A stretch of DNA of 64,000 nt from Eutreptiella sp. 'Long Island Sound 2002' (lineage: Eukaryota > Euglenozoa > Euglenophyceae > Eutreptiales > Eutreptiaceae), in the NCBI GenBank assembly GCA_964036045.1, contig OZ038380.1, forward strand, positions 189,131,694 through 189,195,693, in the 5' to 3' direction. This document shows, piece after piece, positions 3,872-60,323 of this stretch. Below the pieces are notes generated by a model. That model made no database searches. It saw nothing but the letters and a program-made list of their open reading frames with translations, and was not told where the DNA came from. The translations under genes and the position numbers were made by a program. Position 1 is the stretch's first letter, and each line of letters starts with the position of its first letter.

Positions 3872-4179
3872 CAAGGGGGGCGTACCGTGCGCTGTGCACG
3901 CGCTGTGCGTGCGCTGTGCGAAAAGTTGGCTGTTCTCCACCGGGAGTTCGGTAAGTTCAGAAGATTGAAAGGACGTCATTGAATGGCTGCTGCAGTGGAC
4001 GGGGCTATAGGGGGCAGAATTTAGGTCCCTGAGACCCATGGCAAGCATCGGATGTTTGAATTTTTGAGTTTTGAATTGATTGTGCATGATTCCGCAGGTG
4101 GGTGGTTTTCAGGGTTGTTACCTGGATAATCACTGTAATAATTCGCGCTGTGCCCGCGCTGTGCGAAAACGCCCCCAAG
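3872..4179 (+). repeat. 308-bp dispersed repeat, uninterrupted copy (empty site)
   Basis: This repeat starts at AAGGGGGGCGTACCGTGC and ends at GAAAACGCCCCCAAG. It recurs at 32542-35259, where a 2.4-kb element splits it at GGCTATAGGG. Here the corresponding site, GGGGCTATAGGGGGC at 4001-4015, is intact and serves as the empty site. Units of GCGCTGTGC occur near both ends. No protein is encoded. Confidence 0.85.
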
Positions 4180-32541: not shown

Positions 32542-32674
32542 CAAGGGGGGCGTACCGTGCGCTGTGCGCGCACTGTGCGAAAACTTGGCTGTTCTCCACC
32601 ACCGGGAGTTTGGTAAGTTCAGAAGATTGAAAGGACGTCATTGAATGGCTGCTGCAGTGGACGGGGCTATAGGG
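32542..32674 (+). repeat. 308-bp repeat, left half of the split copy
   Basis: This part equals 3872-4011 of the uninterrupted copy, with small differences such as an extra CAC in CCACCACC. It ends at GGCTATAGGG (32665-32674), which is duplicated on the far side of the inserted element. Confidence 0.85.
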
Positions 32675-32675
32675 T

Positions 32676-33065
32676 GTCAAGCGTAAGTCGCTTATTTTTT
32701 TTTTGCGTAAGTCGCTTATTTTTTTTTTTTGGCGTAAGTCGCGTGTGGAAAAAACAAACTCAAAAATGTATGATACGCGACTTACGCTTTTTTTTGCGAC
32801 GCAACCTACACCAAAAAAAAAGTTACGCGACTTACGCTTTTTTTGATATGCGACCTATGGCAAAAAAAACAATAAATAAGCGAGTTACGCTTTTTTTATA
32901 AAAAAAAAGCGAGTTACGCTTTTTTTTCTTATAAAAAAGCGAGTTACACTTTTTTCTTTATACAAAAGCGAGTTACGCTTTTTTTTTCTTATAAAAAAGC
33001 GAGTTACGCTTTTTTTTAATAAAAAAGCGAGGTACGTGACCTACGCTTATTTCGATACGCAACCT
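32676..33065 (+). repeat. Left terminal array of GCGTAAGTCGC / GCGAGTTACGC motifs
   Basis: Three GCGTAAGTCGC units separated by T runs are followed by inverted units (GCGACTTACGC) and then by about six AGCGAGTTACGC units alternating with T runs. It mirrors the right array at about 34895-35045. Confidence 0.85.
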
Positions 33066-33088
33066 ACAACCAAAAAAAATATGAAGAA

Positions 33089-33455
33089 GGACTCACAATC
33101 CACGCTTTTTTGCGTGGCCCCTCGAGTTGGGGTTAGGGACTCACAATCCACGCTTTGTTGTGTGGCCCCTCGAGTTGGGGTTAGGGACTCACAATCCACG
33201 CTCTTTTGCGTGGCCCCTCGAGTTGGGGTTAGGGACTCACAATCCACGCTTTTTTGTGTGGCCCCTCGAGTTGGGGTTAGGGACTCACAATCCACGCTCT
33301 TTTGCGTGGCCCCTCGAGTTGGAGTTAGGGACTCACAATCCACGCTTTGTTGCGTGGCCCCTCGAGTTGGGGTTAGGGACTCACAATCCACGCTTTGTTG
33401 TGTGGCCGCTCGAGTTGGGGTTAGGGACTCACAATCCACGCTTTGTTGTGTGGTT
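33089..33455 (+). repeat. 48-bp tandem repeat, about 7.6 units
   Basis: Each unit reads GACTCACAATCCACGCTTT, a GTG/GCG-TGG part, CCCCTCGAGTTGG and GGTTAGG. Because 48 is a multiple of three, all frames give a 16-residue repeat; none is continuous with the protease frame. The array ends at the 5' edge of the protease ORF and could be its promoter region. Confidence 0.95.
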
Positions 33456-34339
33456 TTTGCTTGACCACAGTGGAGTGCCCCATGCGAGGCCGCATCCCTC
33501 CTAATGAGGATGCGTCGTTGTACCGCAAGTGGAAAACAGAGGTTGACGTGGATTCCCTCCTGCAAGCTACCTTGCCCCCTGGTCCTATTGAGGATGAGGT
33601 GGACTCGTACGAGGCGTTCGTACTAGCTGGTAGGGTGAGCGAGCTTTCAAATGCCGCCACTCCAGAGCAAGATGCTGTGGTGCCTGTCCTTGCCACTCCC
33701 TCCAATGTAGCCAAGCCGTTGATTGCCGGCATTTCCGAGGAGGAGGATACTGCTATCCCTGTGGCTCTAGCACGGATGGCGACCCGCCGGACGCCCGTCG
33801 ATGAAACCAAGCCTCTTGTTGTGGGAGATTGGATAAGCGACAAGGACATTGTTGCGTGGCAGAACGACAAGTTGTTCCACAATGAGGTCGAGGAGCCACG
33901 GGCATGGACTATGGCGGTGACATACATTGCGTCCTGCCTGAATAGGATGAGGAAGTACAAAGACAGTAAGGGCAACAACCATAAAACTGTTCGTTTGGCT
34001 TGGAGGCAACGCCACATATTTATTGTTAATAGTGACGATCGCGAAGGGCTCCATTGGTTTCTTTGTGCCATCGACTGCAAAGTCCCGGTATGGGCCTTCA
34101 AAGTCCACATTTGGGAGCCACTTTGTGGCAATTCTTTGGTCCGGCCAATGTTGAGACGCCTCCAGTCAAAGGGTGTTGCCGCACATGCTCGGGTTTTGGG
34201 TTTTCAAGAGGATGGTTGGTCATGTGGCTATCAATCGCTGCATCTTTGTGATGAGGTGGCCAACCATAAGTGTTCATCTGTGGGAAGCTTTTCGAGGTGC
34301 CCGAGGCGTACCCAAAGGGCGCAGAGGGTCAGTTGGTGA
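33443..34339 (+). CDS. ULP1-like (C48) cysteine protease within a mobile element
   Basis: A 298-residue frame. The first ATG-like start overlaps the last unit of the 48-bp array, so the true start may be at 33482 or later. The C-terminal half has the C48 signature: RHIFIVNSD, then HWFLCAID with the catalytic His (about residue 204), HIWEPL where an acidic residue (Glu instead of the usual Asp, about 225) would complete the triad, and GFQEDGWSCGYQSL with the oxyanion Gln (255) and catalytic Cys (261). The N-terminal half is acidic and unrecognised. The family removes SUMO or similar tags; the role in a transposon is unknown. The frame breaks near 34290: downstream coding sequence continues in another frame to 34491. 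Confidence 0.75.
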   Translation: MLCGFCLTTVECPMRGRIPPNEDASLYRKWKTEVDVDSLLQATLPPGPIEDEVDSYEAFVLAGRVSELSNAATPEQDAVVPVLATPSNVAKPLIAGISEEEDTAIPVALARMATRRTPVDETKPLVVGDWISDKDIVAWQNDKLFHNEVEEPRAWTMAVTYIASCLNRMRKYKDSKGNNHKTVRLAWRQRHIFIVNSDDREGLHWFLCAIDCKVPVWAFKVHIWEPLCGNSLVRPMLRRLQSKGVAAHARVLGFQEDGWSCGYQSLHLCDEVANHKCSSVGSFSRCPRRTQRAQRVSW

Positions 34340-34491
34340 ACGACAAACGATTTATTCGAGAGCTGGAAGAGTTGCTTGTGAAGGACATCCGTAACGCTTG
34401 TGCGCGGAACACAAATCCGCGTGCAAAGCCGAAGGCATCGGACACAAAGTCTGATTTGATCTACAAGCGTGTGTTTGGCGACTTCTTGTAG
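34270..34491 (+). CDS. C-terminal continuation of the ULP1-like protease in another frame
   Basis: This frame reads FEVPEAYPKGAEGQLVNDKR, a charged helix (FIRELEELLVKDI) and a basic tail ending in VFGDFL before a TAG. It has protein-like composition, follows the protease core directly and overlaps the end of the first frame. A one-base indel or a short intron near 34260-34300 would join the two. I infer one gene rather than two. Confidence 0.5.
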   Translation: MFICGKLFEVPEAYPKGAEGQLVNDKRFIRELEELLVKDIRNACARNTNPRAKPKASDTKSDLIYKRVFGDFL

Positions 34492-34894
34492 TTGGCCCCA
34501 CGCCATTATGGTTGCATGCGAAGAATGTAGTTCGCCCCACGTGACCGGACTCAGGTGATATCACTGGCTTGAGCTTCGTAGCCGGTGGCGCTAGCAGCAA
34601 TATAGTCATTTTGATACCGCTTGCCAAAGGCCGAAGGGCAAATTGCATTTTTTGTTTGCGGTCATGATGAGTGTGCTTCACGTTATTTCCGCCATCTGCC
34701 GCACGTTATTTCCGCCATCTGCCGGCGATGAGTATAAAAACCACCCTTCACGCCACGGCTCCATTGCTTTACCCGTGCCGGAGGTACCCAAAATGTCCGT
34801 GGGGGCTATATGCTTCACCTCCTCCGGTAGCAATGGCGGTTGTTGGGTGGTTCTTGTGTTTCCCCGCCTTTTTTTTTGGAAAAATGGGTTTTTT

Positions 34895-35045
34895 TTTCCC
34901 ATACGCGACTTACGCCAAAAAAAAAAGTTTACGTGACTTACACCAAAAAAAAAATTTCCGTCGAAAAAAAAACGCGACTTACGCCAAAAAAAAAAAAGTT
35001 ACGCGACTTACGCCAAAAAAAAATAAAAAAGCGACTTACGCTTAT
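34895..35045 (+). repeat. Right terminal array of GCGACTTACGC motifs
   Basis: Five units of GCGACTTACGC or GTGACTTACACC alternate with A runs; the orientation is inverted relative to the left array. The outermost 26 bp (CCACAATCGAGCTTCGCCTC onward) have no partner at the left end. Confidence 0.85.
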
Positions 35046-35071
35046 TTCCACAATCGAGCTTCGCCTCCCTT

Positions 35072-35259
35072 GGCTATAGGGGGCAGAATTTAGGTCCCTG
35101 GGACCCATGGCAAGCATCAGATGTTTGAATTTTTGAGTTTTGAATTGATTATGCATGATTCCGCAGGTGGGTGGTTTTCGGGGTTGTTACCTGGATAATC
35201 ACCGTAATAATTGGCGCTGTGCGCGCGCTGTGCCCGCACTGTGCGAAAACGCCCCCAAG
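35072..35259 (+). repeat. 308-bp repeat, right half of the split copy
   Basis: It begins with the duplicated GGCTATAGGG and follows 4003-4179 closely to GAAAACGCCCCCAAG. It ends only 150 bp upstream of the C2 gene start. Confidence 0.85.
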
Positions 35260-38292: not shown

Positions 38293-40652
38293 GAGGGGGG
38301 ATTGGTTTTTTCTTGTGTACCGCAGACCAAGGTCGACCGGTGGGCAATGGGTGAGTATGGGGCTGATGGGGGTCGGTGGAGCAAGAAGCAGACCCCTCTC
38401 CAAGAGTTCTGGCAGTTCTGACCCCATGCTTTTCTCATAACATACGCCTACAGACAATTCGTGTCGCGGCTTCGCCGCGTTCAGAAGTGAAGTGCAGTTG
38501 TGTATGCCCCAGCCCTAATGGCAGGACATTTTGCCCCAATCCAACAATTCAACCTCCAACCTCCGCAAACATTCTTTGGATTCTGAGGATCCAGGTTCTG
38601 ACCCCCGGAATGGCCCACCACCTCTGCAGTTGTTCCCATGATCCTGAAGCAGTTCAAAGGGTGCTTTCCACAAGATCTGGGGAGGAGGTCATCCATGTCT
38701 TGGCCAGTGTCCAGCCAAGAACATGTGGGTGTTGCAGAGCCCCATCTTAGTGGGTGGTCCGGTCAGAGTTGCATTTTGGCTGGGAGACGGCCAAGATACA
38801 TTCTGGTTGAACTCGACCGATTCAGGCATTTGTACAAATTCCATCATTAGACCTCCCATTTTTTCCCATGCCTCTGTTTCTGACGTCCAAGCCACACAAC
38901 ACATGGCACCCTCCGCCGCATTGGCACACCACACCTTATCCAATCAACACTGGGTGATGTCTCAATGAATTTTCTGTTGGAATAGAGTGGTATGCATGTG
39001 CAGTGCTGTGCAGTGTCCTGCTGGTACACAATATGTCGAAAGGCGGAGCCCATCACGAGGCCCTAACTATCAAGTATCCATGGGTGGTGCCTGTCTGGAG
39101 CCTTAGACATTGGCACAACCCTGGTGGTGCAAACCCGGAGCCCTACCCAATCACCTGTACCTGGGTTCAGCCGCACAAGAAGCCTACATCCTGGGTGGGG
39201 TCCATCTAGAATTCTAACTGATCAAATCTCTTTGGGTGAAGCATAGCAGCAGCCCCAGTCACCAGATCTACAGCAGTTGAATGGGACCGATGCTCTGGAA
39301 GACACAATAGCTCAGCGGCTGATGGCTGTGAGACAATTTGGATTTTTCTAGCGTGTGGTTTGTTGCTTTGGGCATGTGCTGCTGCACCGTCTGACCGGCC
39401 ACAAGACGCCACAGGATCCCCAACCTTGTAAAGAGTGCAGAAGTGCATTGCTGCAGGGGGGAATCATGGTATGGTACGGGTCTCAGTGAAGCCCTGGGAG
39501 CGGGAGGGCCTGACCCAGACCGCCCATGAAACATTCGATGGCAGTGTCAGGGCAGCAAAGATGGATATAAGAGTGACGTAAATCTCAGGGTGCGGGTGGG
39601 GGGAGGCTCAGATGACGAAATGATGAGATGACGAAATGCCTGAACTGACTTGGGGAGGACATCTGTGAAGAGTCTGCTCCATGTGCATCCCTGCAGAGAA
39701 ACATCTGCATGCACAAGGCCAAGGCACTTTCAGAACTGACGCCGAACTATTTCATTGCAAAAAAAAATCCATGCAGACAAACATCTCTCTTTCTCCTGAT
39801 TCCTTCAGGGAACAACCAGGAAGTGGCACCAGCATTGACACCTCAGAGTCTTCTGATGAGGAAGAGATTCGACGAATTTTGGCAAAATGCCAGAAGACTA
39901 CTCAACAGATATTTGTTTTGACAGCCACCCTCGGACCATCAGCCTGTCATTTCATCATTTAATCATCCGGGGGGCGGGAGGGGGGGGCGTATATCCATCC
40001 CTGTAGGGCGGTGATCTCAAGGCCACATTCGGTGCTGGGATCTGGTTTCCGCTGCGGAAGCAGCAAGGCAAAACACTGTGTGATTGCGGAACAGCCGAGC
40101 AGTGTTGAACTGAATGAGTCTGGCATGAGGTGAGGATCATGCTGGTTATTTCAAAATCTGACATCATGGCCATTGTGAGAGCAACACCCTTGTCAGAGCA
40201 ACAGCAGGTGTCGTTTCCTCAACTTTTAGAACCAGTTAATTTGGCGGTTCCTTTTTCTCGTGGCCCTTGAGTATCAAGTTTTTCTGTCGTTTGGGGCTCC
40301 TGCCACCCACTTTTATCCCTTCTTGTCCTTTGGAGGTGGAGATGGGGGGGGGGGGGGCACTTTGGCCCATTTGATCTAAAAAAAAAGGTGGTGGCAATTG
40401 GGTAACCACCTGGCGACTAGTGCATTCACGATGCAACAGTCACTGCCCGTGTCTTTTTGCGCCTGCACGCGAACAACGTCCTTGTCAAAGCGGCACTGGG
40501 TGCAGTTTCCATCAAATTTCAAAATTTTAGCCTTCTTCTTGCTAGAAGGGGGGGGGGGGGGGTAAGGGGGTGCGGTTTGGTGGGCGGTCTGGGTCCGTCC
40601 TGCGGTTGTATGCCCAGGTCCAAGGGCCTTTTGTGGAGCCTGCCGTCCCCAC

Positions 40653-43600
40653 ATGCTCCTCCCGGCGCGCGGGTGTGCGCTTGCGCGCCTTGCCTGGCCG
40701 CGGCCCACATGGAGGCAGAGGGGGCACATCGATGGACGCATACGGGGCCAGTGGCGGCGAGTGGCCACGCACCCCGACCTTGTGAAAGGCACCGCGGACA
40801 CCCCCTGCCTGGGCGCGCTGTACCGCAAGTTGGTCACGTCCGGGGTGCTGCAGGAGGATGAGCACCAGCTGCAGGCCGTGCAGGCCTTGGCGGCGGTCTT
40901 GGAGGGCATCAACCGGCAGCAGCATGGGCGGCCCCCTCCTCCAGCGACAGCCCCGCGGCCGCTGCGTGCGCAGGCCCAAGGCACGGCCCCCACCCACCCC
41001 ATGGCAGACCTGGCCCAGGGATGTCTGGCTGGGGTCCAGGATTGGGTCGCCTTTCTCAGGGAGGGGGCCGCGGATCTCTGGGGGAGCAGGGGCCCCGCCG
41101 CCGAGCCCGGCCTCCGGCCCTACGGCGCTGGGGCCCCCGTCCCCGCAGCCCCTGAAGCTCAGTGCCACGGCCTCTACATCTACGGGGAGGTGGGGTGCGG
41201 GAAGACGATGCTCATGGACATGTTCTTCCACGCGGTGCCCGTGCCCCAGAAGCGGCGCCTCCACTTGGCCATGTTCATGTCTGAAGTGTACCAGCGCCTG
41301 CACCGGCTGACAGACCGGACCCACCCCCTCAGCGCCGCGGAGCGCCTGGCGGACGAGATCACGGCCGAGTCATGGGTGCTGTGCTTTGACGAATTCCAGG
41401 TCCCGGACGGCCGGGCACCAACAGCGCCTGTGTTGCGGGGTGCTGTGGTTGGGCGGGGCAACGGGTACCCCCCCCCCCCCCGCGGGGCTTGGAATGGCAA
41501 GATTTGGTGTGCCAAAGTATGCCACAGTATTTGAAGGTCCGAAGCCATTTTTCTCGGTGTCATTGTCTGCGCTCTTCGTATGCACATTCCCATTGTGCCC
41601 GCGCACTTTGCTGGATAAGGACCCGTTGGCATGCGAGGGGGAGGCGCAGCAACATGTCTGCACGAGGCTTTGGTACATCACATTTGAAAGGGGCTGCAGG
41701 GGTTGCCAAGAAATAACAGCAACCAACCAAAGGCCCGTAGGAAATGACAACCACCATTCCCAGTCTGTGCTTGTTCTTTTGCCACAGTCTGGGAATTTGT
41801 GCCAAGTTTTGGTATTGGTGGTGGCAGTTTACGCACTGATGGGGGCGAAGGTGCGGTAATTATTGATGGTGGGCCATGGAATGAAGACCTTTAAACCCGG
41901 CGAACCGGGTTTTGCACAGTGCACGCGCACGCCTCCGCCTGTGGTTTAGGCTGTATGGGTGCGAAGCGTGCGGGCAGGGGGCCGTACGCAGGGGCGTTCG
42001 GCCCCATTTGTTGCAAAAAAGTGGGTTTCGTGGCCATTTGGAAGCTCTGGATATCACTGTGAAGCAGCACGCCCCCGAAATGCGCACCCAACATTGGAAC
42101 CATCAGCCCGCTTTTAAGGCTTATTTATCAGCCACTGTGCAAAGGTTCGTTCAACAGACAGTAGAGTCACCAGACTATCAGTCGGGCGCGAACGAGCTTC
42201 AACGCTGCCGCCTGATCAGACATCTTCTCACGCCTGTATTTGCTACACAGTTGTCCTGTACGCCCGTCAGTTGTCCTGTACGCCCGTCAGTTGTCCTGTG
42301 TGCCCCTCAGGTCTCCTGTGTGCCCCTCAGTTCTCCTGTGCGCCCCTCAGTTCTCCTGTGCGCCCCTCAGTTCTCCTGTATGCCCCTCAGGTTTCCTGTG
42401 CGCCCCTCAGTTGTCCTGTGTGCCCCTCACACTGGTCTACCTTGCAGCACACTATGTGATCAGGATGAAGCGCATAGCACAGGTGTACCTCAATATTACA
42501 GCTGCACTGTCCTCCACATACCATAGGGCGGTGGGGTCTCTCTCATGGAAACGTAAGCACGAGGCCATCATCCAGCTGGCCTCCAAGAGACAAGGCCAAC
42601 ATGTTACTCCCTAGACCATTGCTGAAGCGCCCTCGAATGGCCCCCTCGCCGAGAGCGCCTCGAAAACGCCGTCTCCCAAAAACTTGGGGTGCACTACACG
42701 CACAGATACAGCCGTAAACCCCCAAACCTAGGGCGCCGTAAACAATACACACTTTTGGAAAACATGTGTGTGAGAGGGCTCTAACCCCCTCAATCACCAA
42801 CGGGGAACCAATGAAAATTTTCAATGCTAGCGCCGTAAACGTTGACGAATCTCGGTCAAATTTTCCATTTTCTCTACACCGAAATTTACCTGAAAAACAC
42901 AGTTCTAGCAACGTGGTGTACCAATATGTCAAACCCTGGGCCTTGTTCAGATATGGTACGACGGTTCATTGGCAGCCCCGGAGGAATGTAGAAAAAGAAA
43001 CGAAAAAGAGAAGGATAGGTGCAAGATCTAATTTGCAAACTAGAGGCAAGGCTTCTGTCTATTTGGACAACTGCAAGGAAGGAAATATTGATCTCTGCAG
43101 TCCAAACAGCCAATCAAACTATCACCTCTTTGTAATTTTCCCTGTAGAGATTCTGCTTCCATTAAAGCCTCTCTGTGAAAATGTTTACAGCGCCAGTGCC
43201 GTAAAAAATGACGGCTGTCAGGAACTTGGAAAACAGCAGAATGTGGTGCAAATATTGTTACTCACTACAGGGGTGGGGCAGAGATGCCTAGATGGGGAGG
43301 AAGCTGCGTGGTCCACTGGTGCTTCCCATATGTGTGTCACATTTGTCATTGCTGTTGATGATAGGCAGTGCCACAAAACCCCTGTTGTCACAGTAATCGT
43401 TGGAACCAAGAGATTTAGGAAGGTGTTGCACTGCAGTGAGATTGGGGGCTCCCCACTTGAAAGAATTTTTGGCTCTTATAGCCCGTTTCAAACCACCCGC
43501 AAAAAGACAACCTAATAATTTCAACTGTTGGATCCTCTTAGGCTGGTGTAGAAACCTTTTTAGATCACCCCCATATTTTCATGACCCCTGCATATGGCAG

Positions 43601-46142
43601 TTTGTGCAGTTTGCAGTTTTCACATTTGTCACCGTGTTTCGGTGCACCCGGAACTTTTCCGGCTGGTGCTGGTGAAGGGCACTGCCACACAAACCCCATT
43701 GTCGCGATAATCATCAGAAATTACCCCCTCTCATTTAACGGCGCCAGTGCCGTAAAAATTTACGGCACTAGCACCGTAAATGTGTACCCACTACAGAATG
43801 ATCCCCCCTTGCCCATCGGTGGTGTTCACTGGTGTGTCCCATTAGGCTTGTGTGGACAGCTTTTGAGTTCACCCCCATATCAGCATGATGCAACAAGAGG
43901 ACTATGCAGGTTCCTCCCAATTTGTCCATCTCTGCCCTTCTCTGTCAGAGAGGGATCCAAGGAGGGATGTAGCCTCTAGGGGTTCGAATATCCCTGCTTC
44001 TTGACTGCTTCCCTCCGATACTCTTGACTATTTACGCGCTGTCGCCGTAAATGCTTACGTTAGAAATGTGCCAAACCGCCTACTATCCCCCCTTTGGCAA
44101 TCCCTACACTTAATGGAAACCTCCATGGTGTTTACGGCACTTTTCGCACCCGCGCGCCCCACGTTTACGGCGCTACGCGTGCGCACAGTGCACCCCAAGA
44201 AAAAGTTTGTGGCTCATTGAGAAACTCGGTGATACTATGTTTGATCTGCAAGTTCCTGAAATTGATTTCAGCCGATGACCAACCCCTCGGGGAGTTGCGG
44301 TCTGGGAACGTCGGCTTTTGTATGTTTTTCGTCTTTGCCCCCCTGGGTCACGGTTATTTGCAGGCTTCCTGTATGACTTTCCTCTTTTGTGATCGACTAA
44401 AGCTGTGTTCCATGTTTCCGCCCCCTTGGGCTGTATACCAGGCTTCTCTTCGGACGAGTCGGTGGTCCACTGGATACCGACTCTGCACGTACACATGATC
44501 CTTACACGACACGATGCCTATTGCCGTGACAGCGACTGCTGTACTCCATGGTATTCTCTATTGAGCAGATGTGAGATGCACGGTCCTCATTAACACACTC
44601 ACCCCTGTGGAGGCTTGGCGTTGTCAAATCTCAGAGACACTTGACCCCAGGATCTTACCTGAGATTTATCATGGCACCTTCAGCCGTCTGGTTGACGTCA
44701 CACATTTCAAAAGTCGAACACACACACACACAAAAAAAGCAAAGGTTCGTTCAAATCTTTTTTCCATCGTCATGGGTGATGTCTGAAGAGTGTGACCAAT
44801 AGCACTTGCCCAAGATCAATCCCAAGGACTCGCAGGTGGAAGGGGATTTGTCGTGCCAGGTACTGGTTTTCGGGTGTCATTTTTGACTATTTTTGACCCA
44901 ACTCCACATGGTTCACTGGCCCCCGGAGGCCGCCCGGGGACTCTACCTCCACCTCCACCTCCAGGTCACGGACATCGCGGACGCCGCGCTGCTGACGACG
45001 CTGTTCACGCTGCTCTTCGAGCGCGGGGTCGTGGTGGTGGCCACCAGCAACAAGACCCCGGACACGCTGTACGACATGAGCGCGGGCTTCGCCGCGTTCG
45101 TGGGGCTGCTCAAGCGGCGCTGCGTCATCCACCGCCTCGACCGGCGGCAGGACTACCGGCTGCTGGGCACCGTCACCCACAACACGTACTTCACGCCCCA
45201 CAACGCGGACACGGAGCGGCGCGTGTACGCCACGTTCGTGCGGCTGACGGACCACCCGGTCACGAAGGGGGCCGTGCTCCCCCACTTTGGCCGCACGCTG
45301 GTCGTGCCGTACGCCAAGGGACCGTGCGCCCTCTTCTCCTTCCAGTACCTCTGCGGCGACGGCACGGCCCTGGGCCCCAACGACTATGGGGCCCTGGCGA
45401 GGGCCTTTCACACGATCTGCATCACCGACATCCCGGTCCTGGGGCTCCGCAACCGCCAGCAGAGCCGCCGCTTCATTTCGCTGGTGGATGAGCTGTACCG
45501 CTACAAAGTGAAGGTGTGTTTTTATCCATTTTCTTTGTTTTTTTTTTCAATTGTTTTTCAATTCTTTTGCTGTTTGCGCCCAACAAGGCGCGTGCGCTCG
45601 GACAATCGCTTCCGCTTTGTGCCGTCGCGGGTACGGGCCCCACATAGCACGAGCAGGGTACACATGCGATGGATCAGAAGGGGGGGCAGGGGCTGCAAGT
45701 GGTCAGGGGTGGACCGCCACTTTGATCCAGCTGCGCCTGCCCCGCGGCCTTCATTGCACTGCAGGTGGTGTGCTCCGCCGCCAGCGGCCCCGACGGTCTG
45801 TTTGCCTTTGAAGAGCTGACGGAGGCGGCAACAGAGGAGAGGGCGTCGGAGTACGCGGCGGACAGCAAGACGGAGCGGGAGCAGGGCTCGTCCTACTTCG
45901 AGCACTTTGAGTACACGTTCGGGGACGAGTACTCGTGCGAGGACAAGCCGTACCTGAGGGACGCGGAGGCGAAGGACAAGCGGTTCACGGGGAAGGACGA
46001 GGTGTTTGCCTTCCGGCGGGTGCAATCCCGGCTGCGGGAGATGATGACCGACGAGTACCTGCGGGTGCAGCACTTGTGCTTCACGACGCAGGAGGTCAAC
46101 GTGGACCTGCTGCTCAGTTCCACGAGACGCCTGGAGGCTTAG
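40653..46142 (+). CDS. AFG1: AFG1-like (AFG1L/LACE1) AAA-type ATPase, 3 exons
   Basis: Exons 40653-41399, 44965-45513 and 45765-46142 join in phase 0 to about 557 residues. Exon 1 has the family start (ALYRKLVTSGVLQEDEHQ), then YIYGEVGCGKTMLMDMF (Walker A) and VLCFDEFQ (Walker B). Exon 2 continues VTDIADAALL, which completes the conserved FDEFQVTDIADA string, then VVVATSNKTPDTLY (sensor 1) and the HNTYF region. Exon 3 ends KDEVFAFRRVQSRLREMMTD, typical of the AFG1 C-terminus. AFG1 is a mitochondrial inner-membrane ATPase that helps degrade or extract respiratory-chain subunits; ATP hydrolysis residues are kept here. The first 40 residues are basic and could be a targeting peptide, but the exact start is uncertain. 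Intron 1 (3,565 bp) is full of repeats; intron 2 is 251 bp. Confidence 0.9.
42248..42430 (+). repeat. 20-bp tandem repeat inside AFG1 intron 1
   Basis: About nine units of the type TTGTCCTGTACGCCCGTCAG, drifting to TTCTCCTGTGCGCCCCTCAG. Three Pro/Ser/Cys/Val frames cross it and are artefacts. Confidence 0.95.
42705..44182 (+). repeat. Field of CCGTAAA / TTTACGGC motifs inside AFG1 intron 1
   Basis: CCGTAAA or its complement occurs about nine times in 1.5 kb, often within GCGCCAGTGCCGTAAA. At 43739-43780 two units face each other across AATTT, forming a long hairpin. The spacing is irregular, so it is not a tandem array. Confidence 0.7.
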
Positions 46143-55514: not shown

Positions 55515-55602
55515 GGATAATACGCGATTGCCACGTGGTGAACGGCCACTGCGTTTCGCTGTCTGAACCCTTGCAAGCAACCATCCACAGGAAGTACCAA
55601 CA

Positions 55603-56670
55603 ATGCCTGTGATTTGTACGTACTGCCATGAAGGAGGACACCATATTTCAAACCGCCCTGCTCTGCCGAGTAAATCTGAGTCTGCAAGAGACGGCAGCCC
55701 ACCCTCCCCGTGCTGGTGGTGTGATGGAGACCACTGGTTGAATACATGCCCTAAAAAGGAGGAACGTCGGAAAGCAAAACAATGCATACACTGTGGGTCT
55801 GACAAGCATTGGGTAAAAGCCTGCCCTGAGTTCAACAAAATGAAGGAGGACCCAAGCAGAGGTATCAACAACCTGGTGGTCTGGTGTATGCGCTGCGGTA
55901 CCAAGGACCACAACACAGTGCAGTGCACGGAGACCGGTCGAGCAATCAATATGCCTGATGCCGACGATGGAGTACAGTGCTGCCTGTGGTGTGGAATAAA
56001 AGGTCATGACTGGGAGGAGTGCTTCAAAAGACTGCCTGTTGCGCAACGAGAAATGAATGAAAAACTCACCGAGACGACTTCTCAGCTGGATAGCACCAAG
56101 GACCGCCTAGATGCTCTGGAGCGTCGCGCCGACCGCACAAATGAAGCACTGAGCAACATTCATGATATTGAAGCAGATATTTCAACAATCAAGGGTCAAG
56201 TGGAGAGGCTGCTAAACTGGAAATCTGACACCGAAAAGAGACTGGCCAAGAATGATGAAGAAATGTCTCGCTTTGACAAAGCGTTGAAAGAACATACCAA
56301 AGCCATGCAGAAATCTGACACGCAGTTGATGCAACATCATGCCACGCTGACAGCTTTTGACAAGGCGCTGATCGCAGCAAAAATTATACCGCAATCGGGG
56401 ATGAACAAGCGACCACCAGTAGAGGATGCCACAAACGTGGATCAATTATCCCAGACCACCTCTTCCCCGAGGAATAAACGAGACGGTGCATCAAGTTCCA
56501 CTGCGCCTGCGTCGCCCGACAATCGCCCACGGAAACACAGACCCGGTTCCGCAGACAACGAGTGGTATATGACACTTCAACCTGCTGTTGGGGCTGATCC
56601 TGATGAACTGTGGCTTGAAGCCTTGATGGACGAACTGCCGGTCGACTGGTCGCCTGAAAGGTTCGAATGA
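55603..56670 (+). CDS. Zinc-knuckle and coiled-coil ORF1 of the Penelope-like element
   Basis: A 355-residue frame from the ATG at 55603. The first 145 residues hold five knuckle-like units: CTYCHEGGHH (last Cys missing), CWWCDGDHWLNTC (one residue short), and three canonical C-x2-C-x4-H-x4-C units, CIHCGSDKHWVKAC, CMRCGTKDHNTVQC and CLWCGIKGHDWEEC. Residues about 150-265 form a coiled coil with heptads (LDSTKDRLDALERRADRTNE). A basic, Ser-rich linker and an acidic C-terminus follow. By analogy with Gag and LINE ORF1 proteins it should bind element RNA and multimerise. Penelope-like elements usually lack such a Gag-like ORF. Confidence 0.75.
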   Translation: MPVICTYCHEGGHHISNRPALPSKSESARDGSPPSPCWWCDGDHWLNTCPKKEERRKAKQCIHCGSDKHWVKACPEFNKMKEDPSRGINNLVVWCMRCGTKDHNTVQCTETGRAINMPDADDGVQCCLWCGIKGHDWEECFKRLPVAQREMNEKLTETTSQLDSTKDRLDALERRADRTNEALSNIHDIEADISTIKGQVERLLNWKSDTEKRLAKNDEEMSRFDKALKEHTKAMQKSDTQLMQHHATLTAFDKALIAAKIIPQSGMNKRPPVEDATNVDQLSQTTSSPRNKRDGASSSTAPASPDNRPRKHRPGSADNEWYMTLQPAVGADPDELWLEALMDELPVDWSPERFE

Positions 56671-56804
56671 CTCGAAAATTGGCTAAAGGAATGGTCGTCA
56701 GAGGAGATGCTACATACTATGATGAGCTTGAAAACCGGGGTATCAAGAAACACACGAAATAGAGGCATTCGTACGATTCTTCATGGCACCAAAATACCCC
56801 CAAA

Positions 56805-57872
56805 GTGTTTCGCCTCGCGACCGGCAACGTCTGCTTAGAAGACTTTGACGATGAAATGCAGCTGCTGCAGAACAGGCTCCAGATGGCTCTGCAGAAATTG
56901 TCCCTGGCAAAACGCCTGCTAAGTGCAACACAATCCACGCCAACACCTCAAGCAAGATATGATTACATTCCCGCATTGCTCTCACACTCCTATGACAGCA
57001 TGTTGCGCCATGAGTATGGGTTAGATGCGTCTGGCGTGCGACTGTGGTGTGTACTGCATGCATCCTCTATGGGTGAACGATGGTTATCAGACCCTGAGTC
57101 GGTGAAACAAAGTTTAATCGCTGCAGCACGCACAAAGTCAGAAATTTGGTCGCAACTGAGTCACACTGTGTTTAGGAATAGTCCCCTCACACCCCCGATG
57201 TGGGCTCGCCGCTTCGTCATTTTGGCGCTCAATACAGTTTGCGTCTGGCACCACCCAAAGGCACTATGCAGCACCAGGCACTTTAGTGTGCATGAGCGCT
57301 GGCAGAGATACAATACGAGCCCTGCACCCCCTGCTGTTGACTATATTAGTCACGATGTAACAGGTATGTTCCCTGATTGTGAAAAACAGTGGGTGTGGAG
57401 CACATCCGACGGATATCCTTTCCCTGATCTGTCTGATTTTCACTGTGTGGCAGGCGGGGAATTTCAGCAGGTAACGTGGTACCTGCACACGACACGTGCT
57501 GCTTTGGCTGCAACAGCAAGCCTACAGCGGTTAAGGGTCCATGCATTGTTTAAACACCAGAAGAAAGGTTGGAGTAACCTATGGGCGCCTTCTGACTACC
57601 AGCAACTACTTTGTAATGCATACACACGTGCCATCAGGACTGCCGACAGAGACAGCAACCTGGGTAGATGGGCTGAGTTATTGGAGTTTCGTATCACGCA
57701 TCTTCCCTACCAAAAAAACCCCTTGTTATGGATGATCCGAGCATGCTCACACATACATCAGTGGTCGTTAGCTACGCCTGTTTATGGACACATGATATAT
57801 GTTGTATTCCATGTACACCTGTTTTGCCTTTACATTGGAGTATTACTTGGTAACTCACTAAAGGTGCCCTGA
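56805..57872 (+). CDS. ORF2 of the Penelope-like element: unknown region plus start of GIY-YIG nuclease
   Basis: A 355-residue frame whose first start may lie further upstream in another frame (about 56673-56790 also looks coding, with a stop at 56760). The first 320 residues are unrecognised and rich in Trp and His. The end has MIYVVFH (57792) and LYIGV (57828-57842), the two strands of a GIY-YIG domain. The frame stops at 57872, but the domain goes on in another frame with QLRKHNKEWL (Arg at 57884, His at 57890) and then in the RT frame. I infer that this ORF and the next were once one polyprotein. Confidence 0.65.
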   Translation: MFRLATGNVCLEDFDDEMQLLQNRLQMALQKLSLAKRLLSATQSTPTPQARYDYIPALLSHSYDSMLRHEYGLDASGVRLWCVLHASSMGERWLSDPESVKQSLIAAARTKSEIWSQLSHTVFRNSPLTPPMWARRFVILALNTVCVWHHPKALCSTRHFSVHERWQRYNTSPAPPAVDYISHDVTGMFPDCEKQWVWSTSDGYPFPDLSDFHCVAGGEFQQVTWYLHTTRAALAATASLQRLRVHALFKHQKKGWSNLWAPSDYQQLLCNAYTRAIRTADRDSNLGRWAELLEFRITHLPYQKNPLLWMIRACSHIHQWSLATPVYGHMIYVVFHVHLFCLYIGVLLGNSLKVP

Positions 57873-57971
57873 TCACTCAACTACGTAAGCACAACAAGGA
57901 GTGGCTCAGAGGACAGCCCTTTTTATAACCTACTGTGTCGGACAGGAATTCAGCACTGGACTATTGCCCCT

Positions 57972-60323
57972 TTGCAATGGACGGACTGCGAAACAACCGC
58001 ATGTTTTTTAGAGAGAGCCTGGTGGTCTAAGTGGCAGAGATGGGCCCTGAACGCGTGCGCACCGGCTGTACCTGCATCACATGACACACAGACACCGCCA
58101 CCACAACATACGAAACGACTGGCCACAGTGTTGCGTCGCCTGCACACAGCACGCATCGACAGAGACTATGCGCAGTGCCACTTTCTCCAAAAGGAAGCTG
58201 CTGCCATTTGCTCAGGATTGAACATCCCTTATGTGCCTACACCCGTTGTTAAAGTGCCAGACCTAACTGGTCCCCAACGTGCTGCAATTGGTTCAGTGAT
58301 CCGCAGTCTGGTTAAGAAGGTGCCTGTCCCACGCTGGCACAAACAGGCTATTAGGGCTTCCATTCGCGTGGTACAGACGGTGCCTCACTCATTACGTAAA
58401 GTGGTGGAGAAACAGGGGAATGCATTAGCATGGAGTGCGGAACCCCCGGAATGTCGGTGCAACAGTCAGTACAGGCATTTGTGGGAGAGTGCAGGTGATA
58501 TAACAATTCTTGATGGCCATTTTGCGTTACTTCCGGTTACTATATATCAGCACGACAGTGTCCTGCGGTCAGGCGATCCGTTGCCGCAACATGGGCAGAA
58601 GTCTCGGTGTGAAACGGTGGCAGGCTTAGAACGGTTGGCTGGTAGTCTACACGCCGAGCACCCACCTTGGCGGTCTGCTTTACCCCTTGATCTTTTCAAT
58701 GAATCTGGGTCCGATCTCAAACGTGTTTGCCAAGTTGTGGAAAATCTCTGTTCTGTGGCGTATGTGCGCATTGTGGATAAACACTCGTCAACCATGTGGG
58801 CATTTTGTAGACGATGGGCCTGGGATGAGCATATCAGGTTTGTAAAAGACGAGGGGTATCAGCCCGTTGATAAATCAGTGCTGCAAGTGTCCCGGATACT
58901 GAAAGAGAGGGTGTCAGAACATGGCTGGAAAGCAGGAACAAATGCACGCATCGCCCTGATGTACCTGTTGGGGAAAGCCAAATCCCTGCGGCTACCAGAT
59001 ATTCTCTGGAGACCTATAGCGGCGGCCAACAGACCGTTTGTCAGCAGGAACACGTTGCGCATTGCAGCGCGTGCTTTTACCTGTTTTTTGAGATGTCTGT
59101 GCACCGAAGTGACCGCAGCTATTTTAGCCCTGCGAATTTCTGATATAGCCCCTTGGTTGAATGACTTAAGTCAGTGGGGAGCAACCTGTATTGGCGAGGC
59201 GGACTGCAAAGAGCAGTTCAACCGCATCAAGCCCAGCACTACTTTAGAGGAGATTAGAGAGGCGTCTCAATTTTTATACCAGAAGCGTCGCTGGGGGAGC
59301 ACAGACATTGTCTGGAGCGTACACCGTGATTGTAAGGCATTGGATAGGGCAGGAAAGGCAGCGTCAGCCTCATTCTGGCATCTGAGCCATGCGGAATTAG
59401 AGAGTATGGTGTGTTTTTCTCTCACTGAGGACAACACGGTCTGGTGTGCTGGGTCCCTATGGAAAAGGAGTGGGGAAATACCTATGGGGGGGTCCTTCAG
59501 TGCGCAGTGCGCAGATCTGCATAGCATCTGGGCTATGAAGAAAAACGTGGATATCATGAAACAGTTTGGGAAACTGGTGAGAACGGTCCCATTCCCGTTG
59601 TGGGAAACCCCTGCAGGCAATATAGTTTCGCTTTCCCAATTCAGGGATAACGTGAACGTCGCTGCCAAAGGCCCCACGGCACCACAGGAGATGTCCCGCG
59701 TGTGTTCAGCGTTGAGCGATTGCTGGGGGCTGCCTGTACTATGTGACTGTTTGAGTGAGGGTGATGAATGCACAGGCGTATGCATGTCTCAGCGACTTTG
59801 CATTTTAGGACTGACTGTCCATGTCGGAGAGACTGTGGTATGTTACTCAACCCCGTCAGCACTGAACAATCAATGGATTTTAAAGTGGGGACCGAGCCTG
59901 CAGAGCCCCTGGGCCATGAATGCAGCCAGCCTGAGCAATATTTTCACAGGTTCCCTCGTCAATTCAATGCCTTTTCAATTTTCCTGGTCCTGCTTTTTAC
60001 TGAGTGTGTCCAGTTGGATGCAACTTGCGTTTCTGTGTGGGCACTCAGCGTCGGTGATTCTCAGAGCCATGAAAGCGGCGGTGCATAAATGTTGCAGCTG
60101 CTCAGAGTGGTGTGTTGAGGCCTCGATTGGATGGGCTGTGGTACAGGGGAGGAATTTACCCACCTCACCGAAAGACGCCGGTGGCTTACTTCAGAGGTGG
60201 CTCCAACAGCAAGCCTATTGGTCCGATGTAAAGTATGCCTGTTGGCATGTGCCACATGAGGGCTCCTGCAGTGAACACTGTGCAGCATGGAACAGTGATT
60301 ACCATATGTTATCGCATATATAA
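57972..60323 (+). CDS. Penelope-type reverse transcriptase with GIY-YIG C-terminal part (FRDN active site)
   Basis: A 783-residue frame; the frame is open upstream to about 57918, so the start is nominal. Residues about 1-30 finish the GIY-YIG domain (catalytic Glu in LERAWW, Asn in LNAC). RIVDKHSSTMWAF (about 268) matches the DKG motif special to Penelope-like RTs. Motif A is EADCKEQFNRI (Asp about 411), motif B is EIPMGGSFSAQCADL (about 502), and motif C is SQFRDNVNV (Asp 559, Asn 560). The Asn replaces the second catalytic Asp of YxDD. The 200 residues after motif C are Cys/Trp-rich and hydrophobic. The enzyme would prime reverse transcription at nicked target DNA. Confidence 0.75.
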   Translation: MQWTDCETTACFLERAWWSKWQRWALNACAPAVPASHDTQTPPPQHTKRLATVLRRLHTARIDRDYAQCHFLQKEAAAICSGLNIPYVPTPVVKVPDLTGPQRAAIGSVIRSLVKKVPVPRWHKQAIRASIRVVQTVPHSLRKVVEKQGNALAWSAEPPECRCNSQYRHLWESAGDITILDGHFALLPVTIYQHDSVLRSGDPLPQHGQKSRCETVAGLERLAGSLHAEHPPWRSALPLDLFNESGSDLKRVCQVVENLCSVAYVRIVDKHSSTMWAFCRRWAWDEHIRFVKDEGYQPVDKSVLQVSRILKERVSEHGWKAGTNARIALMYLLGKAKSLRLPDILWRPIAAANRPFVSRNTLRIAARAFTCFLRCLCTEVTAAILALRISDIAPWLNDLSQWGATCIGEADCKEQFNRIKPSTTLEEIREASQFLYQKRRWGSTDIVWSVHRDCKALDRAGKAASASFWHLSHAELESMVCFSLTEDNTVWCAGSLWKRSGEIPMGGSFSAQCADLHSIWAMKKNVDIMKQFGKLVRTVPFPLWETPAGNIVSLSQFRDNVNVAAKGPTAPQEMSRVCSALSDCWGLPVLCDCLSEGDECTGVCMSQRLCILGLTVHVGETVVCYSTPSALNNQWILKWGPSLQSPWAMNAASLSNIFTGSLVNSMPFQFSWSCFLLSVSSWMQLAFLCGHSASVILRAMKAAVHKCCSCSEWCVEASIGWAVVQGRNLPTSPKDAGGLLQRWLQQQAYWSDVKYACWHVPHEGSCSEHCAAWNSDYHMLSHI

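Follow-up and report, generated by a model that had tools for sequence, protein, structure and literature searches.

The 64,000-nucleotide stretch of the Eutreptiella sp. 'Long Island Sound 2002' genome analyzed here (contig OZ038380.1; in the following the window, i.e. the whole stretch) contains a 2398-base-pair (bp) insert at positions 32674-35071 of the forward strand, which splits one copy of a 308-bp repeat. With a probability that we put at roughly 0.88, this insert represents a non-autonomous, internally deleted cut-and-paste transposon of the Mutator-like element (MULE) type, the full-length members of which encode one long fused protein. In that protein a protease-like region, which an earlier note on the same DNA had taken for a ULP1-like protease gene, forms the C-terminal part.

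The insertion is directly visible in the window. The 308-bp repeat is unbroken at 3872-4179 (+ strand), where no trace of the insert is left, and a second copy at 32542-35259 is interrupted by it. When the left portion (32542-32673) and the right portion (35081-35259) of the interrupted copy are joined, the resulting 311 bp align with the unsplit copy with 254 of 268 positions identical (95%), and the alignment is continuous across the insertion site. The sequence GGCTATAGGG occurs on the + strand of the window at three sites, namely at 4003 in the empty site and at 32665 and 35072 at the two borders of the insert. The split repeat with its empty site, as reported in the earlier note, is a genuine observation that exceeds chance. 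The ten shared bases had been taken as the target-site duplication and this needs correction, because a G precedes TGTCA in nearly all copies placed in the genome and the right flanks duplicate nine bases only. Hence, the duplication comprises the 9 bp GGCTATAGG (32665-32673 on the left, where the split repeat terminates, and 35072-35080 on the right), the tenth base is the first G of the element, and the element extends from 32674 to 35071. Short inverted ends (CAAGGGGGGCG.../...CGCCCCCAAG) are also found on the 308-bp host repeat, which has the appearance of a small non-autonomous DNA element.

Further copies were searched in the same 2.28-Gb genome, the contigs, fetched loci and proteins of which are numbered here with C, L and P, respectively. 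A DNA search with the right 572 bp of the element gave 1811 candidates, 40 of which were scored and yielded 41 matches. Thirty loci came from this search and 20 stretches from around motif matches on contig C1; the border scan took in 51 stretches, accepted up to three changes in the left terminus and up to four in the right one, passed over left matches within the motif array and excluded L022, L045 and others. Both ends were found at fixed borders in 17 copies. The nine bases flanking them agree completely in seven copies, at eight positions in four, at seven positions in three, and at six, five and two positions in one copy each. When the left flank of one copy was paired with the right flank of another (272 mispairings), agreement reached 7/9 at most, in a single case. 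The other copies with duplications of 9-10 bp that the earlier note had proposed to look for thus exist, in the 9-bp form. Two of the loci, L021 and L028, have the same right end and flank (CTCATGATGCTT) and may therefore go back to a single segmental duplication instead of two separate insertions.

The element begins with G, and its left terminus GTGTCAAGCGTAAGTCGCTTATTT (32674-32697, + strand) is the same as in the full-length copy described below. The left motif array (32681-33046) consists of three forward copies of GCGTAAGTCGC followed by reverse copies that range from exact to two mismatches, and the right array (34905-35041, - strand) holds reverse copies, four of them exact and one with two mismatches. 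All nine exact GCGTAAGTCGC sites in the window, counted on both strands, are situated within the insert, three forward and two reverse on the left and four reverse on the right, which bears out the inverted arrays described at its ends. Genome-wide, the motif was found 1037 times in forward and 1042 times in reverse orientation (2079), compared to 299 and 340 times (639) for the reversed pattern as control. The right terminus (35049-35071, - strand) reads CACAATCGAGCTTCGCCTCCCTT; elsewhere the right end is CACAATCGAGCTACGCTTTCCTC or a near variant, from which the window copy departs by four changes. This border had been called unpaired. The usual right end, reversed and extended by one base, agrees with the left end at roughly 15 of the 24 positions (hand count), so it appears to be a degenerate inverted repeat, which is further altered in the window copy.

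The identity of the element became apparent from longer relatives. In locus L040, the open frame leads from different sequence, which includes a SWIM-like motif, into the protease-like protein; together with its upstream DNA this locus forms a 3161-bp element with the perfect duplication AGAGCGCTT, in which 535 amino acids (aa) of the same fusion are encoded in a frame stopping within the protease region. When the genome was searched with the upstream part of L040, which corresponds to the transposase C-terminus, 1130 candidates were obtained, 133 of which were scored and gave 134 matches. Many of these sit in long open frames, and the second-best falls in a 1246-aa frame on contig C15. The corresponding full copy (C15:33267673-33275503, 7831 bp) has the exact left end, the right end with one mismatch and arrays at both ends, and is flanked by the perfect 9-bp duplication TTGTTGGGG. 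Its protein matches the Pfam family PF10551 (MULE) at residues 293-392 (model positions 3-99 of 99, E 9.3e-5, 23.2 bits), hence the longer relative with a MULE transposase, for which a search had been suggested, was found.

The uninterrupted 1246-aa frame of the 7831-bp copy holds the protease-like region of the window at its C-terminus, which means that this region is not a separate gene as initially assumed but part of the transposase protein. Its parts are, in order, an N-terminal region, the MULE DDE transposase, the SWIM-like zinc motif, another Cys-rich motif, the protease-like region and a conserved tail. In the numbering of the 1232-aa protein that begins at the first Met, the landmarks start at residues 291 (first Asp motif), 360 (second Asp motif) and 385 (CxxH), followed by the SWIM-like motif at 608, the Cys-rich CGQC at 726, His-Trp at 944, His-Ile-Trp-Glu-Pro-Leu at 962 and Gly-Phe-Gln ... 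Cys-Gly at 993. Parts of the fusion are also present in the proteins P0097, P0016, P0113 and P0114, all from other contigs. Two further loci are mentioned as side observations. A 5.5-kb copy in L011 (C1:24979000-24987000) has frames with PHD-finger-like Cys/His patterns, as judged by eye, and about 1 kb past the right end of one copy a transposase piece (L054:3147-3560), 40% identical to the transposase C-terminus of the family, is perhaps a decayed relative.

Compared with the 7.8-kb copy, the window copy shows two matching blocks, 96% and 93% identical, which have 19 bp in common in the window (34248-34266, + strand) and are separated by about 430 bp in the 7.8-kb copy; therefore, the window copy has lost an internal segment within the protease region. 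The frame holding the protease-like region is open from stop to stop at 33425-34339 (+ strand) and stems from the C-terminal half of the fused protein. It is broken near the deletion junction, because 34270-34491 (+ strand) continues the same protein as a leftover C-terminal piece in a different frame. Hence, the reported protease frame is present, but it is no longer intact. The transposase part is gone, in agreement with the earlier statement that the insert carries no transposase. The 48-bp tandem array noted previously was located at 33089-33453 with 7.6 copies; it also occurs in the short copies L013, L015, L016 and L017 and gave no match in L061. Collectively, we infer that the window copy is a deletion derivative that would be mobile only when the full protein is supplied.

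Two more families with the same protein layout were found, from each of which one element was read. The first of these, on C4 (14813943-14822788, minus strand), is an 8846-bp element with a 1366-aa frame and the perfect 9-bp duplication TGTGCTGGT, and the other, on C14 (6005822-6014909), is a 9088-bp element with a 1425-aa frame and the perfect 9-bp duplication CCAAGGATT; both duplications were located by scanning near the array borders, which were not fixed beforehand. In the transposase region searched they are about 55% (C4) and 45% (C14) identical to the first family. All three families encode their motifs in the same order and within a single frame. The end arrays are GCGTAAGTCGC in the first family (C15), GTAAGTCGTGTAA in the second and GGTAAAACTGAGTA in the third. 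Even at two mismatches, GCGTAAGTCGC was not found in the C4 element, and a single match with one mismatch in the third family lies outside the C14 element. Protein and end arrays diverge together, as an observation on three elements. An 85-bp minisatellite (CCCCCGCTCTGAAGCGGTGGGGATCCCCGATACGGC...) was seen upstream of the frame in L063:1-1627 and in the left part of the reversed L064, with about 19 copies per fetched stretch, and similar translated repeats were noticed by eye in L023, L059/L040 and L062/L061.

The assignment to the MULE type is based on the PF10551 match, which recurs in the protein of the C14 family (model positions 13-99 of 99, E 1.6e-4, 22.4 bits), and on target-site duplications that are 9 bp long, varied in sequence and thus within the MULE range of 8-11 bp; certain MULEs are described without terminal inverted repeats (TIRs) (PMC6446971). 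A SWIM-like Cys-x-Cys ... Cys pattern can be recognized by inspection in all three families; Pfam scans gave no SWIM match, and the scan of the full C15 protein yielded MULE, a non-significant DurN match and nothing else. The protease-like region displays in three families, again by inspection, the order His-Trp, Glu (two families) or Asp (one family) and Gln-x5-Cys, with Gln six residues ahead of Cys. The order His ... Glu/Asp ... Gln ... Cys would fit clan CE peptidases and known C48 enzymes. Sequence searches against PDB with this region were empty or not significant. The term ULP1-like is therefore used here as a label for a residue pattern only, and the region is not filed under C48.

Several observations count against the interpretation as a MULE with a ULP1-like part. 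The PF10551 scores in the two families, 23.2 and 22.4 bits, are under the curated cut-off of 27.6, the protein of the C4 family gave no PF10551 match at E <= 1, and the comparison with one canonical MULE open reading frame of this genome was not significant (best E 0.64). The TGTCA after the first G is compatible with TGTNR, the start of Ginger1 transposons. Six of the 17 copies share seven or fewer of the nine flank bases; in two of them, L016 and L019 (scores 5 and 2), the flanks agree by eye after a one-base shift or gap. Regarding the protease-like region, Pfam scans of pieces or full proteins gave no C48 match, the nearest protease match, in which 21 residues around the Cys align with Peptidase_C78, is not significant (E 0.16-0.17), and structure models are of low confidence and too weak for a statement on the fold. 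Finally, the ratio of nonsynonymous to synonymous substitution rates (dN/dS) in the protease region was 0.44-0.98 among 13 frames (78 pairs computed, those with at least 200 codons quoted), where unrelated N-terminal sequence in certain frames may raise both rates. Constraint is therefore weak or mixed with neutral decay, and the range fits constraint in an active lineage together with neutral decay in its copies.

For the short copies, we slightly favor the view that their protease-like frame is residual coding sequence and that amplification proceeds via the retained ends alone. A matching protease frame was obtained from 32 of 50 scanned loci, some of which were clipped by their edges, and five of the 32 frames reach at least 480 aa. 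Furthermore, copies of 852, 1091, 1397 and 1562 bp, whose flanks agree at 7, 7, 7 and 9 of the nine bases, have no matching frame. However, the protease-frame proteins include a cluster of 68 members at 532 aa and one of 35 members at 457 aa, which would suggest that long frames are either maintained or of recent origin. Related proteins reach down to 46% identity (108 rows, all marked 'ena'). The alignments comprised the query with 16 of 18 clustered proteins (A1) or with 10 of 18 (A2), and A4 was made without one sequence containing a stop codon.

The alternative that protease-only short copies are selected helpers, which provide VANC-like anti-silencing in trans and leave transposition to the full copies, appears rather doubtful. 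It would draw on Arabidopsis, where VANC proteins bind short motifs arranged in tandem in the non-coding DNA of VANDAL elements (PMC5735166) and some VANCs bear Ulp1 (PMC13317346). Here, too, a protease-like frame is flanked by motif arrays and forms the two large clusters, and the end arrays are unlike among the three elements read. However, the protease region is joined to the transposase in full copies, the window frame is broken, and the dN/dS values are without strong constraint. Moreover, among the five matching frames of at least 480 aa, L040 is a piece of the fusion, and in L033 and L056 the sequence printed for the frame start is unrelated.

It is most improbable that the element belongs to the Ginger1, KDZ or CACTA type and carries Ulp1 in such a context. 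Ulp1 domains are known from Ginger1 and CACTA elements (PMC2836005, PMC2528002), and in Ginger1 the transposase and a C-terminal Ulp1 protease domain also share a single protein, in addition to the agreement of TGTCA with its TGTNR start. However, Ginger1 has a Gypsy-type integrase and duplicates 4 bp, CCGG or CCGT (PMC2836005), and membership was rejected in view of the varied 9-bp duplications, which together with the PF10551 match stand against all three types. When the full protein was scanned against Pfam, with no search aimed at KDZ or CACTA, neither of these types found a counterpart. In CACTA/Spm elements, subterminal TnpA arrays present an inverted short motif near both ends, combined with a 3-bp duplication and CACTA ends, whereas the present elements have 9-bp duplications, ends starting with G and a MULE-type transposase. 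Practically negligible is the reading of the 2.4-kb segment as part of a larger ancestral repeat, with the copy at 3872-4179 as its deletion product, since the unsplit copy has no insert remnant and the 17 copies stand between different flanks, most with their own duplication, so that the segment is an insertion as the earlier note had it.

Among known systems, the closest are MULEs with Ulp1 domains, which have been reported in hydra, lancelet and plants (PMC2836005; for plants also PMC6117577 and PMC2528002) and share with the present elements a MULE transposase, 8-11-bp duplications (PMC6446971) and, judged here by residue pattern, a Ulp1-type domain. In contrast to these, as far as they are known by description, the elements described here unite the SWIM-like, Cys-rich and protease-like parts in a single frame, 1246-1425 aa long, and carry inverted, family-specific arrays of 11-14-bp motifs. 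Kaonashi and KIU-carrying VANDAL MULEs of Arabidopsis are likewise high-copy elements with a ULP-like gene (PMC6117577, PMC13317346, PMC2528002), and the motif repeats in non-coding VANDAL parts, the targets of VANC proteins (PMC5735166), resemble the arrays at the ends here. The ULP domain in the KI-MULEs is oriented in reverse to mudrA in non-TIR elements, whereas here the protease-like region is encoded in the same frame, C-terminal to the transposase, between ends that appear to be degenerate TIRs. Membership in the Kaonashi/KIU group was rejected for this orientation and the shared frame. Hence, MULEs with Ulp1 and a C-terminal Ulp1 fusion, the latter in Ginger1, are already known, and new, as far as found in the literature searched, is a protein that unites MULE, SWIM-like, zinc and protease-like parts in a single frame, together with inverted end arrays specific to each family.

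Because the arrays are inverted at both ends and differ between families along with the protein, they are best read as putative sites to which the protein encoded by the element binds. The MULE protein would bind the arrays at both element ends, pair them, cut, and join the full element or deleted derivatives to a target with a 9-bp stagger, as expected from the family. The C-terminal region might act as an active cysteine protease that strips SUMO- or ubiquitin-like tags off the transposase or nearby chromatin, and tag removal might help the element to escape silencing or to finish transposition. By analogy, a parallel close in kind with the Arabidopsis VANDAL elements suggests itself. It is conceivable, albeit at rather long odds, that we are dealing with a MULE lineage in which the transposase doubles as its own anti-silencing factor, arrays and protein co-diverge and short protease-only copies serve as separate helpers, i.e. 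an independent VANC-like system. If this were true, each family would free only itself, with the fused zinc/protease part reading its own end arrays.

SUMO/ubiquitin-type protease domains recur in different transposons. The present elements are of interest in this regard, with a protease-like region inside the transposase protein that has been kept across three families of about 45-55% identity in the transposase region searched. One protein layout, three motif sets and the many right-end candidates make them a testable system, for which natural deletion copies are available both with and without the protease region.

Some other features of the genome and the window should be mentioned. In genome G000, PF10551 matches are clustered locally at C2:10452318-10461156 and at 6.4-6.8 Mb of C16, and four matches on C2 follow each other at intervals of exactly 2946 bp, which looks like tandem amplification. 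In the window, three successive long frames at 55567-60323, the first of which has zinc-knuckle-like patterns, possibly represent a retroelement; the 816-aa frame among them had no Pfam match. An AFG1-like ATPase gene (PF03969) is situated at 40566-45816 in two pieces, presumably split by introns.

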